Shown here: one piece after another, positions 42,793-62,712 of the stretch
How positions within the stretch are numbered: position 1 is the stretch's first letter
Layout of the letters: each line of letters starts with the position of its first letter
DNA from: Eremomyces bilateralis CBS 781.70
Lineage: Eukaryota > Ascomycota > Dothideomycetes > Eremomycetales > Eremomycetaceae
Direction of reading: 5' to 3'
DNA length: 64,000 bases
Assembly: GCF_010015585.1 (NCBI RefSeq)
Contig: NW_022985081.1
Coordinates: forward strand, 465,538 to 529,537
Made by a program: the position numbers and the translations under genes
Notes under the pieces: generated by a model
Seen by the model: only the letters and a program-made list of their open reading frames with translations
Told to the model about the DNA's origin: nothing
Database searches by the model: none

Positions 42793-43629
42793 ATGCCGAC
42801 ACTCCAGGCCTGCCACCGGCCTCATCACGGCATCTCTCGCAGCCTCCGACTCTCCTCAATTGCTCGCACACGACCATTTCACACCACCACCCACTACTGC
42901 AATCATGACCTCCCCAACCACTACGCCGCGCTCGATCTCCCCCCCAATGCCACCACCAAAGATGTAAAGCGACAATTCTACGCCTTATCCAAACGATGCC
43001 ACCCCGACACCCATGCCTCCCGACCCGACGCCTCCAAAAAAGACGCCGAATCCCGCTTCCACCGCATCTCCGAAGCCTACCACATCCTCGCCCACGACTC
43101 CCGCCGCGCCAAATACGACCGCGACTACCACCGCATCCACGGCAATGGCGCGCCTCCCACCACTCCCCACGGCACCCATTCCTCACACCAGTCCCGCTCC
43201 CGCGGCCCCGCCGGCAGCCGCCCCGCCTCCGGCCTCAGCCCGCGACGCGGGGTATTCAAAGGCCCGCCGCCCAGCTTCTACCGGCAATACGGGCAAGAGC
43301 CGCCGCGGGAGGGTGACCCGGCAGCGGATGCGGACGCGCGGGGCACGACGGGGCGGTGGGGAGGGTTTTCGCCGGGGCAGGCGGATCCGGATTGGCGGCC
43401 GGATCCGTATATCCCGCATTGGGATCGGACGCGGCATTTGAGGACGCAGGAGAGGATTTTGGAGCGTGGGAGGGAGAGGAGGGCGGAGGAGCGGATGGAG
43501 TGGTTGGAGAGGTTGAAGCGGGAGAGGGGGGCGCCGGAGCCGCAGGGAGGGGCGGTGGCGCGGTTTGTCATCACGTCGGCGGTGATAGGGGTGTGTGTTT
43601 CTGGGACGGTGTTCTTTGCATCAAGATGA
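42793..43629 (+). CDS. Mitochondrial J-domain protein
   Basis: A single exon encodes 278 residues. The basic, hydroxylated N-terminus (SRSLRLSSIARTRPFHTTTH) looks like a mitochondrial presequence. The J domain (residues about 42-112) has DLPPNATTKDVKRQFYALSK, the catalytic HPD in RCHPDTH, and RFHRISEAYHIL. A Ser/Gly/Pro-rich linker, a conserved-looking DPDWRPDPYIPHWDRTRHL segment, a charged helix and a C-terminal membrane span (FVITSAVIGVCVSGTVFFA) follow. It resembles DNAJC30/Jid1-type inner-membrane co-chaperones of mitochondrial Hsp70. Codons are C-ending before about 43290 and G-ending after. An upstream out-of-frame ATG lies at 42786. Confidence 0.88.
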   Translation: MPTLQACHRPHHGISRSLRLSSIARTRPFHTTTHYCNHDLPNHYAALDLPPNATTKDVKRQFYALSKRCHPDTHASRPDASKKDAESRFHRISEAYHILAHDSRRAKYDRDYHRIHGNGAPPTTPHGTHSSHQSRSRGPAGSRPASGLSPRRGVFKGPPPSFYRQYGQEPPREGDPAADADARGTTGRWGGFSPGQADPDWRPDPYIPHWDRTRHLRTQERILERGRERRAEERMEWLERLKRERGAPEPQGGAVARFVITSAVIGVCVSGTVFFASR

Positions 43630-44990
43630 TGTGCTGAGAGGACAGGTCGACGAAGAGGGGCTAGGAAATGTTGGGATGGCTTGGCTCGGAAGATGAGGTG
43701 GCTATTCAAAGACAGTGTACGATATACGCGTACTAGGTGAAGCCTCCATGGACACCTATAGTTCCTTCAGCCTAGATCGATCCCTAGATAGATATTTCTA
43801 CATATAGTCCGCGTTCGGTCGTGAATTTTAGTTGGATCCTACTTTCCCAATTGCGTGCGAGCTCCTTAATGGACAGGCTATCTTAGGTTTGGGATCATGT
43901 AGTGTTGCTGTGGGCTCAGCCTCCTGAATGCACGCCCATCAATCGCCAATGGAAGTTCAAAATATCCAACCAACTTCAAAGGCATCAGATGAATGTTGAT
44001 GCTCTCGGGTGATTTTTATATCGGACCATCCATTAATTACTGTCTTGCATGTGATTGAGATTCCTCGAGCTCAGTCGCAACTTCCTCCACCAGTCCAGGT
44101 TTGGTGGACGGACCTCTTCCCCAACACCTGGCGCCTGCCAGTTCCGGCAGCACGACATAGAACATTACAACCACGCGTTTTGACTTCACTTCATCCAAAT
44201 CATCTTCGCGATGTATAAACCAATTCAACCCATTCCCATCAACTCTTCTCTTGTTCGATGACCCATCACCACAAGCTACCCAACAACCAGCTTAGCATGG
44301 CTTAAATCTAGCCCCCTCAACATCCCCTCAACACCCCTCCACGTTCTCAATCTATTGGTCCCTGTAACATCGACCTCCATCGCCAATCCACGAGTCTCCA
44401 CCTATCCTCCGATATTTCCCAATCCATCCTCAGGTATTCCGTGTTCCGTCCAGCAGATCCCAAACCCGGCTGTCTGATCTATGGGATGGATTGTTATATT
44501 AGGTAAAACACTAGGATTCTGCCGTGCAACGGGCCAACACTTGTACTGACCATCCGCTCCGTGGCTCTGGTGCTGGCAACTGTTCACACGTCCTCTCTAA
44601 AATTCTCCTGCGCCAGCCAGTCCATCGGCCAAGCCACCTTTCACTTACACAAAGTCTCTTCCCATTCGTCTTGAGCATACCGGTCAGGATTCTGATATCA
44701 AGCTGTTGCGTTGTTTGGCCTCTCTTTTCCCGCATCGTCGGTGTTACGCCTAAGACTTCCTCAACCAGGTCATTAGAACCTTCCAGCACGCCTTTGGGTC
44801 TCTTCCACCAATCTTCTTGGCTGTAACGAGCTGATGAACATTCACTATTCCTCCATCGCTCCGTGCACCCTATTACCTGCAGAAGGTCTCACATAGTTGG
44901 CTACGAAGAGTCTCGCCCACTTCACCCTGCGGGAGGTTTCACACATATGGTGGGATTGGCGCAGGCGTCTTAGAGTGCCAAGTTACCATC
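43630..44990. other. Gene-free stretch, PHO81 promoter
   Basis: No supported gene in 1.36 kb. A CCAAT box lies near 43943. I found no CACGTG box of the NUC-1/Pho4 type. The length suggests a large promoter or long leader for PHO81. Confidence 0.45.
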
Positions 44991-47900
44991 ATGTAAGTTC
45001 TCGATTTCTCGTTTCCAGCACTGTAGCATTTCGATGTGGTTGGCCCGGTTTCCGAACTGGGCTATATGCACGCTCCCGGAACATGGATTTCAATGTCAGC
45101 ACTCAGTGTAGCCCGACCCGATGATATTGACCGCAGTTCTCTGGCAGGAAGTTCGGCAAGCAAATACAGAGGCGACAGCTTGACATCCCGGAATATGCTG
45201 CAAGTTTTGTTGACTACAAAGCCCTCAAGAAGGTACCACAGTGCTTTTACTATTCAAATGTCTGATCCACTGCTGACGTTCCCAAGCTCATCAAGAAGTT
45301 AAGCTCGACCCCGGTGATTAGCGCTCGGGATGAAGGGATTCCTAGCCTAGATGGGTTTGATCCACCGGCCACCCTCCAAGCAAATAAAGACAAATTCTTC
45401 TTTCGGCTGGTACCGTATGCCCATCACTTTTTTGCTCTCCTATCTAACTGCTACTACAGGAGCGTGAGTTGGAGAAGGTCAATATCTTCTATCTCCAAAA
45501 GGAGGCTGAGGTCGGATATAGCACCTGCTACTAACAAAACCATGACTGACAACCGTGCAGCTGAAGATTCGTTTGACTTCCTTACTTGACCAGAAGCGTT
45601 CCCTGCAAGCACAAACTGCGCCGGTGTCAAGACTATCGTCAAGATACATTGCACTCGAGGAAGGATTCAAACAATACGTGAATGATCTGAATAAGTTGCA
45701 GGTCCGTACTGTCGTCTTTTGCTCTGGCCTGGACTGACTAGCGTAGCAATTTGTCGAGGTCAACCAAACCGCGTTTACAAAAATCCTCAAAAAGGTTGGT
45801 CACATCATCAAACATCGAGTTACTTATCTAACATTCAATTAGTGGGATAAGACCTCGAAGGTCAGGCTGCCATTGTCCAGTTCCCTTTTCGTCCATTGAC
45901 TTGAAACAGTCCCAACAAAAGGAGGTCTTCCTTGCACGCGCCGTGGAAGTTCAACCGTGCTTCAATCAAGATGTCATTGGTGATCTCTCGGACCAGGCGA
46001 CGACAAATCTGCAGGATTTCGCAGACTGGGCCGAAGGTGGCGAGATCCGACAGACGCCCAATGAAAGGCCCATCGAAATCGGCAAGCCCCTTGCAGAGGA
46101 CTTGGAAATCGAATCTCAGCTCCTTCAAGCCGCCATAGTCGGCGATACCACTGCACTCCGAGAATGGATCAATCGACTAGCGTCATCCCCTGACGCAAAT
46201 GAACGATTCACCAAGGCCTTCCTGAGCACATCGGAGGAGGCTCCCGAACAGTCGTTGCATATCCTCCTCGAGTCACAACTGGTTGACCTAACTCGCACTG
46301 ATGAGATAAATCAACGCAACATCCTCCATAAAGCAACCATCTCCGGTCGACGGCTGCTTCTTGACGTTGGCGTGGCTGGAAATGTCGACGCCAGAGCAGT
46401 GGACGTCTATGGGCGACTGCCCATTCACTATGCCTGCATTCACGGTTTCGTTGAGATGATTCCACTCCTAGTCGAACAAAGTCCCGAGACGATCAATGCG
46501 AAAGACCACGACAACTTCACACCGCTCATTCGCTCGATCGTCAGCAATAAGCTCGACTGTGTTCGGGTGCTTCTCGAGGTAGGAGCAAGCATTGACCCCT
46601 CTAGCGAGAAGGATCATGTGCCCCTCAATCTGGCTTGTCAACACGGCTCCGCCCCGATTGTTGCGTTGCTCCTAGAACGGAAACCAAAGATACTTCCTGA
46701 TGCGGAAGGCTTATACCCTCAGCATCTAGCCGCCCGATCCACAAAGACGCTGGACATTCTTCAGATGCTGAAAACCTACGGCGCCGATTTGGACCAACCC
46801 GATCACTTGTATCAGTGGACCCCGTTATTCCACGCGGCTAGCGAGGGGAATGTACAGTGCCTGAGGCTGCTCATCGAAGAGTGCAAAGTCAACTGCGATG
46901 CTAAAGATGAGAAAGGCTTGTCGGCTTTGTACTATGCCACGTGGGAAGGGCACATCGAATGCATCCGCCTTCTATCATGCCATATGCGACGAGCTTCAGC
47001 TTCGCATAGGACACATGGCTTGAAACCAAGAACACCCCTAGCTGTCCCCGTGGTGTCCTCGTCTCCTTTCCCATCGAGTCTCGATGCCGAATCCATACCT
47101 CCGATCACACTTCCTCCACCCATCATGCCGCTCCGACGCTACGGGCACAACTTCCTCGATTCCAAGACGTTTGTGGTTCTCAACTTCGGGGATCTCGGTT
47201 ACGAACCCATCCAGTTCTACGACGATAATAAGTACCCTGCAGCTCGGCTGACGATTTCTTCCAAATCCTCCGATCTGATTCCCCGAAACCTTTTGCTTCC
47301 GATTCAAGATGAATTCAAAACCATATCCTTCCAGATCGACAACGTCGATACTTTTTCGCTGGATTTCGACATCTACCCCACCTTCGGCGCTCGAGTCATT
47401 GCCCGTGCCGTCGCCTCTTCCCGAATCTTCACGAGTAAAACCTCATCCTCCGGCCGCTGGCATCTTGAGCTGCTCGATCTCCGCCTCCGCACCATCGGCC
47501 GCATCAGCTTCAACTTCCAAGTCGTTCGCCCATTCCCCGGCGTCCCTCTTGAGATCACGAATTTCGCAACGTACTGGAAAGCTACGACGAACGAACGAAA
47601 CCCCTCCGATGAAATCATTCCGCAGTCCTTCAGCCCATCGTCGGCCATGCAATCCCTTTCCTCCAACCTTTCCCTCGGTAGCCATCATCACACGCCTTCT
47701 ACACTCAAGATTACCGGGTCAAGCTTATCCGGCTCCTATGTCCGTCTTTTCGTCCAACTGACGGCCGACAATGTCCCCGTCCTGTATCCGCATTGGCGCG
47801 TCTCCCACTACGGCCTCGACGTCCCCATATCCAACCTCACCGCATCGCAATTCTCCGATATCGGCGCTTCCCAGCAGAACCGTGTTCCCTTTAGCCTAGA

Positions 47901-48875
47901 TTCTTTAAAACACGCAACCATCTCAGACACCCCCGCGCTCAGCTCTCAACTCGCGAAATCGTTTGCGACGCTCTCCGACGTGCTATCCGCAGTCCCGCTG
48001 GATATTAACGTGGAGCTTCACTGTGTTTTCCCGAGACGTGCGCAGGCGGAGCAACTCCGTCTTACTCCCAATAGGAATATCAATGAAGTGGCGGACGCGG
48101 TGTTACGAGCGTTGTTTGAGCATGCACGACGGAGCAGAGAGGGAGAGCATGATGGGACCGAGCACTCGGGACGGGGTGTGGTGTTCAGTAGTTCGAGTCC
48201 GGAGCTGTGCATCGCGTTGAATTGGAAGCAACCGAATTGTGAGTTGCTCCCACTATTACTAGCAGAATAACCTTGGACGGTTGATGTTCTAGATATTTGG
48301 CTAACATGGCGCTCAGATCCGGTCCTTCTATGCAGCGAACTCGATCCATCCGACACCATGCCACCCCCTCCGCTTCCACGATGGGTTTCATCCACTACCG
48401 AAACTGCGACTTCGCATGTGACGCTCAGTGTCAAGGAAGCGGTACAAGTGGCGCAGAGCAACAACTTCATGGGCCTGATATGCTCCTCCAGATTACTGGT
48501 ACGTATCCCTTTCTTCCCTCCTTCTCACCCCATAATTCTTCACCCGCACAATATCCAGGTCCGGTTGCATTTGTCTTCAGGACCAATCATTCCATCTCAC
48601 ATTGACCATAATACTAACGCATCAACTCACAGGCCCTCGCTCCAGCCCTCATCACCACCATCAAAAACGCTGGCCTCGTGCTCGTCGAGGATATCCCTTC
48701 GGAACCCTCTCCGCGCACCTCTCTGCATGGTGCTGAGAGCATGGACGTGGATTCCGATCGGACGAATAAGGTGTGGGAAAGGGGTTCGTGGGGACGAGGC
48801 TCGGGCAGTGCGGATATTGATGGCACGTTGACGGGGAATGCAGTGCTGAGGTTTGTGGAGGGTGTGGGGATGTGA
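44991..48875 (+). CDS. PHO81: Pho81/NUC-2 type phosphate-signalling CDK inhibitor
   Basis: Ten exons (44991-44992, 45148-45232, 45287-45409, 45460-45510, 45561-45701, 45747-45794, 45843-45860, 45910-48238, 48317-48498, 48633-48875) encode 1073 residues. The SPX domain (FGKQIQRRQLDIPEYAASFV to FTKILKKWDKTSK, residues 1-156) senses inositol pyrophosphate. Ankyrin repeats (about 230-460; GRLPIHYACIHGFVEMIPLL, EGLSALYYATWEGHIECIRLL) carry CDK inhibition. The C-terminal half is a glycerophosphodiesterase-like domain (HWRVSHYGLDVPISN). In Neurospora NUC-2 inhibits PREG/PGOV so that NUC-1 activates phosphate genes. The start codon is split: AT in exon 1 and G in exon 2, and no other in-frame ATG exists before the conserved FGKQIQ. 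Exon 7 has only 18 bp. Confidence 0.93.

Positions 48876-61130: not shown

Positions 61131-62712
<1,582 letters not shown>

Follow-up and report, generated by a model that had tools for sequence, protein, structure and literature searches.

A phase 2 intron divides the predicted initiator codon of a PHO81/NUC-2-like gene in Eremomyces bilateralis

The window analyzed here, a stretch of 64,000 nucleotides from Eremomyces bilateralis, contains on its forward strand a gene whose joined reading specifies a protein of 1081 amino acids, encoded in ten coding exons separated by nine introns. Exon boundaries were picked by eye so as to hold the reading frame and the sequence of the family. The features of this gene, together with two possible open reading frames that precede it, are as follows.

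44834..44896, + strand: possible upstream open reading frame of 20 codons, if the stretch is transcribed
44947..44973, + strand: possible upstream open reading frame of 8 codons (MVGLAQAS, stop TAG), ending 17 nt 5' of the split start
44991..44992, + strand: PHO81 exon 1, the A and T of the initiator, with ACCATC directly 5'
44991..44996, + strand: start-stop ATG-TAA, present as such in unspliced RNA only
44993..45147, + strand: PHO81 intron 1, phase 2, 155 nt, CAT/GTAAGT ... TGGCAG/GAA
45148..45232, + strand: PHO81 exon 2, G AAG TTC GGC AAG ..., where the SPX domain begins (MKFGKQIQRRQL)
45287..45409, + strand: PHO81 exon 3, following an apparent and unusual AAG acceptor (CCCAAG)
45460..45510, + strand: PHO81 exon 4
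45561..45701, + strand: PHO81 exon 5
45747..45794, + strand: PHO81 exon 6
45843..45860, + strand: PHO81 exon 7, an 18-nt microexon (WDKTSK) within the SPX-coding part
45910..48238, + strand: PHO81 exon 8, which encodes the end of SPX, the ankyrin repeats, the GDE1-like C2 domain, and most of a weak GDPD match
48293..48498, + strand: PHO81 exon 9
48633..48875, + strand: PHO81 exon 10, last codon TGA

Comparison with Pfam profiles places an SPX domain at the N-terminus of the protein (PF03105, 79.7 bits against a cut-off of 27.8), ankyrin repeats at its center (PF12796, 151 bits against 27.3), and a GDE1-like C2 domain, C2_GDE1, that also scores above its cut-off (66.9 bits against 27), whereas a GDPD match is weak and falls below it (21.3 bits against 23.6). 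The predicted domain architecture is that of PHO81/NUC-2, the SPX–ankyrin–GDPD-like inhibitor of the cyclin-dependent kinase of the phosphate pathway, with SPX, ankyrin repeats, and C2_GDE1 in the same order and possibly a degenerate GDPD region last. Pattern scans for related proteins in two sequence collections, viral_contigs and genome_contigs, neither of them meant to include fungi, matched 1 and 28 stretches, respectively, none of which was a relative. According to the available passages of a review of its role, PHO81 inhibits a cyclin-dependent kinase in the phosphate response (PMC10437122). The end of intron 2 (45284–45286) seems to be AAG (CCCAAG/CTC) instead of YAG, an acceptor adopted because the reading ALKKLIKKL requires it.

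The initiator of this gene is split between AT at 44991–44992 and G AAG TTC from 45148 on, with a 155-nt intron of the form GTAAGT...GGCAG between them; the coordinates, length, donor, and acceptor given in the original prediction are exact to the base. The sequence that follows ACCATC at 44991 is ATGTAAGT, that from 45140 is TCTGGCAG GAAGTTCGGC, and excision of 44993–45147 joins AT to G AAG TTC GGC in the reading frame of the ten coding exons that run to 48875. A degenerate search of the whole window for the coding start of MKFGKQI, with three mismatches allowed, returned one match, at 45146, where AGG stands in place of the expected ATG; 0.13 matches would be expected by chance. Seven other AG dinucleotides occur within intron 1, none of which (0/7) has G as its next base, so only the AG at 45147 completes ATG, in agreement with the proposal that the MKFGKQIQ start is produced only by joining AT to G AAG TTC.

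Read upstream from AAG TTC in its unspliced frame, the codons are AGG, GGC, TCT, TTC, CAG, CCG, and then TGA at 45128–45130, and no ATG lies between this stop and AAG TTC, as had been predicted. The ATG at 45083 shares the SPX frame, and its 13-codon reading stops before exon 2. An initiator confined to spliced mRNA, as first put forward, describes the situation in part: the start becomes usable only once the RNA is spliced, but a contiguous ATG is present in the DNA at 44991–44993, with TAA next (44994–44996). Following Met1, the next methionine of the PHO81 protein is residue 339, and a transcript that retains the intron contains, counted from 44834, 20 AUGs before Met339, including those of the two upstream open reading frames and that of AUG-UAA. 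As read from the sequence, the family initiator arises through the splice 44992/45148. Because the unspliced RNA offers a bare AUG-UAA and the next methionine is residue 339, we infer that the normal PHO81 product needs splicing of intron 1, and the prediction that intron retention would abolish this product holds on the same reading.

The position of the initiator was assessed by comparison with solved structures and with the Pfam profile. The first 178 residues matched 41 solved chains, 4 of which aligned from query residue 1, namely 5ijj, 5ijp, and 7d3y at chain residue 1 and 7e40 at chain residue 2; the chains of 5ijj and 5ijp both start with MKFG. For the other 37 of the 41, the alignment begins no earlier than query residue 14, and these are uninformative about the start. 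In the Pfam comparison, the match of the first 36 residues to SPX begins at profile position 1. By homology only, the joined codon would be the true initiator. An N-terminally extended PHO81, with its real start in an unseen upstream exon, was considered as well, given that the frame leading into AT/G is open for about 150 nt, back to TGA at 44835–44837. This open stretch contains no in-frame ATG, however, and Met1 lies where the Pfam profile and the four solved SPX chains begin, which makes an upstream start highly improbable.

To gauge how readily such an arrangement forms by chance, the 400 nt preceding 45148 were shuffled 20,000 times with dinucleotide counts preserved. A donor of the form AT/GTRWGT at least 45 nt upstream occurred in 251 of the 20,000 shuffles, and 38 of 20,000 had this donor together with a terminal YAG. 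When both strands of the window were searched, ATGTAAGT was present three times, always on the + strand, the other two copies lying at 61169 and 62600. Both are intron donors in a modeled methionine aminopeptidase 2 gene (61131–62712, with four introns by our reading), the joined 446-residue product of which aligns over its full length to 8onz. A second split start at 61169 was rejected, the position being an internal donor of this modeled gene. The first 17 letters from ATG recur at 61169 with one mismatch, and the blastn alignment spans only these 17. A search of the genome (26.6 Mb, 62 contigs) for the 17-letter start with up to two mismatches gave nothing notable, with 7 matches versus 4 for a reversed control.

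The splice signals of intron 1 seem to be of unequal quality. Its donor agrees with CAG/GTAAGT at 8 of 9 positions, including all 6 intronic ones, and is the best consensus match among the nine PHO81 introns, the other eight matching 3 to 5 of the 6 intronic positions; among 13 introns scored, two from the methionine aminopeptidase 2 gene likewise match 6/6. The sole branch-like motif of the form YTRAY is TTGAC, located 17 nt before the acceptor; across the 13 scored introns another form of the motif is commoner. A second CAG ends at 45136, 11 nt 5' of the acceptor that is used. From these sequences, the 3' side of the intron appears less strong than the donor side. At 155 nt, intron 1 is the longest of the nine; seven of the others measure 45–54 nt, and intron 9 measures 134 nt. 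One further, loose donor-like site lies within intron 1, at 45095 (GTCAGC).

An RNA element in intron 1 was considered and rejected: an Rfam search of 44000–45400 returned no match up to an E value of 1, and the fold of 44970–45170 is ordinary, being no more stable than those of shuffled sequences (z 0.87; in 166 of 200 shuffles the fold was as stable or more so).

Read as a GT-AG spliceosomal intron of ordinary type that interrupts the initiator after its second base, intron 1 would very probably be spliced constitutively and efficiently. Intron-retaining transcripts would then yield no full-length PHO81 and would probably decay as faulty RNA, with control of the phosphate response presumably lying elsewhere, in transcription and in the inhibition of the cyclin-dependent kinase by PHO81. 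The AUG-UAA of the unspliced RNA is a by-product of where the intron lies and does not on its own indicate regulation, because every start-codon intron that opens AT/GTAAGT or AT/GTGAGT leaves AUG followed by a stop in unspliced RNA; therefore, no faulty N-terminus would be made from that AUG.

Intron 1 might also act mainly as a promoter-proximal enhancer of expression, its position in the initiator being incidental. Among the introns of the coding part none comes earlier or is longer, and such a role is a possible, if rather doubtful, account of why intron 1 is there; it is compatible with a constitutive start-codon intron and not opposed to it.

The original prediction had gone further and proposed splicing as a possible on/off control of phosphate signaling; in such a switch, high phosphate would raise intron 1 retention, expose AUG-UAA, and turn PHO81 off. 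Retained transcripts would indeed be without the normal initiator, and the 3' side of the intron falls short of the strongest form. Precedents for conditional splicing exist in Neurospora, where, in the passages available, intron retention responsive to antifungal drugs was found in three genes out of 13 preselected, nuc-2 not being among the three, and where a hex-1 splice variant is cited as being modulated by phosphate and pH (PMC4821360). A further parallel comes from the leader of Arabidopsis NIP5;1, in which, according to excerpts of the paper, AUGUAA stalls ribosomes in response to the nutrient boron (PMC11915504). These are the same six letters as in unspliced PHO81 RNA, but those of NIP5;1 sit in the 5' untranslated region of the mRNA, whereas those of PHO81 are destroyed by splicing.

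Against such a switch, a weak donor, as would be expected of regulated splicing, is not what intron 1 has. On/off control finds no support here, because the donor is the best of the gene, no Rfam family matches, and the fold is ordinary. In addition, start-codon introns of Yarrowia lipolytica are described, in the passages available, as efficiently and steadily spliced (PMC13309789). Among the open-licence literature matches listed, neither a split PHO81 start nor PHO81 intron retention is reported in titles or abstract openings, and none of these describes such a switch for PHO81. In the main text, as available, of a Verticillium NUC-2 paper with RACE cDNA, the word intron is absent (PMC4682923). 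Phosphate-regulated retention is a very unlikely explanation, and constitutive splicing of intron 1 is the reading preferred here.

Introns that disrupt the start codon are known from other genes and were termed relatively rare by Nielsen and Wernersson in 2006 (PMC1626468). The PHO81 intron, with phase 2 in codon 1, belongs with their class of introns in phase 1 or 2 at codon 1; that paper is chiefly concerned with phase 0 introns just past the ATG, and PHO81 is not named in the passages available. In excerpts of two papers on Yarrowia lipolytica, 42 introns have a 5' splice site that directly follows one of the three start-codon bases (PMC13309789), and 47 genes have a first coding exon consisting of the initiator A alone (PMC2911113). 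Like the PHO81 intron, these split or abut the initiator, so that the normal start needs splicing; the 47 genes, however, are split A/TG, whereas PHO81 is split AT/G, and the Yarrowia sets are backed by transcript data, whereas the PHO81 split is read from the DNA letters. Loss of the product upon retention is not special to a start-codon position, because 1426 of 1738 introns in Yarrowia open reading frames hold premature stops (PMC13309789, as excerpted). A Huntiella paper was set aside as a parallel, since the part available concerns a mutated start codon and not an intron (PMC10182648). Within this literature, as far as its available passages go, the PHO81 case is another instance of a known, uncommon gene structure.

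The same genome was searched for other SPX genes, and at least seven places resemble separate ones, a count that omits one weak place on C3 (E 0.35). A contiguous ATG stands at the start of the SPX domain in four of the seven (C17, C18, C20, and C33). By our reading, the other three of the seven have a phase 2 intron in one of their first five codons. In PHO81 this intron follows base 2. In a gene on C25 (L014, reverse strand of the locus), which we take to be VTC4-like, the analysis having tested its SPX domain only, a phase 2 intron follows base 5, inside codon 2, with the junction ATGAA/GTACGA ... CCCCAG/G TTC, three coding bases from the position of the PHO81 intron; the match between the joined start of this C25 gene and Pfam SPX begins at position 1. 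The third gene, on C10 (L001:1435 on), is presumably SYG1/XPR1-like, again with the SPX domain as the only part tested, and has an apparent phase 2 intron after base 14, in codon 5, with a junction read by eye as ATGAAGTTTGCAAA/GTGCGT ... TTGCAG/A GAA CTT.

Because two more SPX genes seem to carry start-proximal phase 2 introns, gating by splicing at the initiator could be imagined as common to phosphate genes, with a nutrient-dependent balance of spliced and unspliced RNA setting the PHO81 level as scanning ribosomes meet AUG-UAA whenever intron 1 is kept. We regard such gating as very improbable. Introns cluster near gene starts, and the start-proximal introns of the three SPX genes are for this reason treated as a curiosity.

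Both upstream open reading frames lie in the probable PHO81 leader and would be kept after splicing, unless a leader intron removes them, and they could affect translation. Farther upstream of PHO81 are one CACGTT and one CACGTC, at 44340 and 44587; CACGTT is a weaker variant of the PHO4/NUC-1 site. CACGTG is absent from 43600–44990.

The split start would matter to phosphate signaling only if retention of intron 1 proved to be phosphate dependent. Its practical meaning concerns how the gene is read: an intron-retaining PHO81 cDNA would appear to have no start, and annotation software that looks for an uninterrupted ATG could cut PHO81 short or misplace its start.
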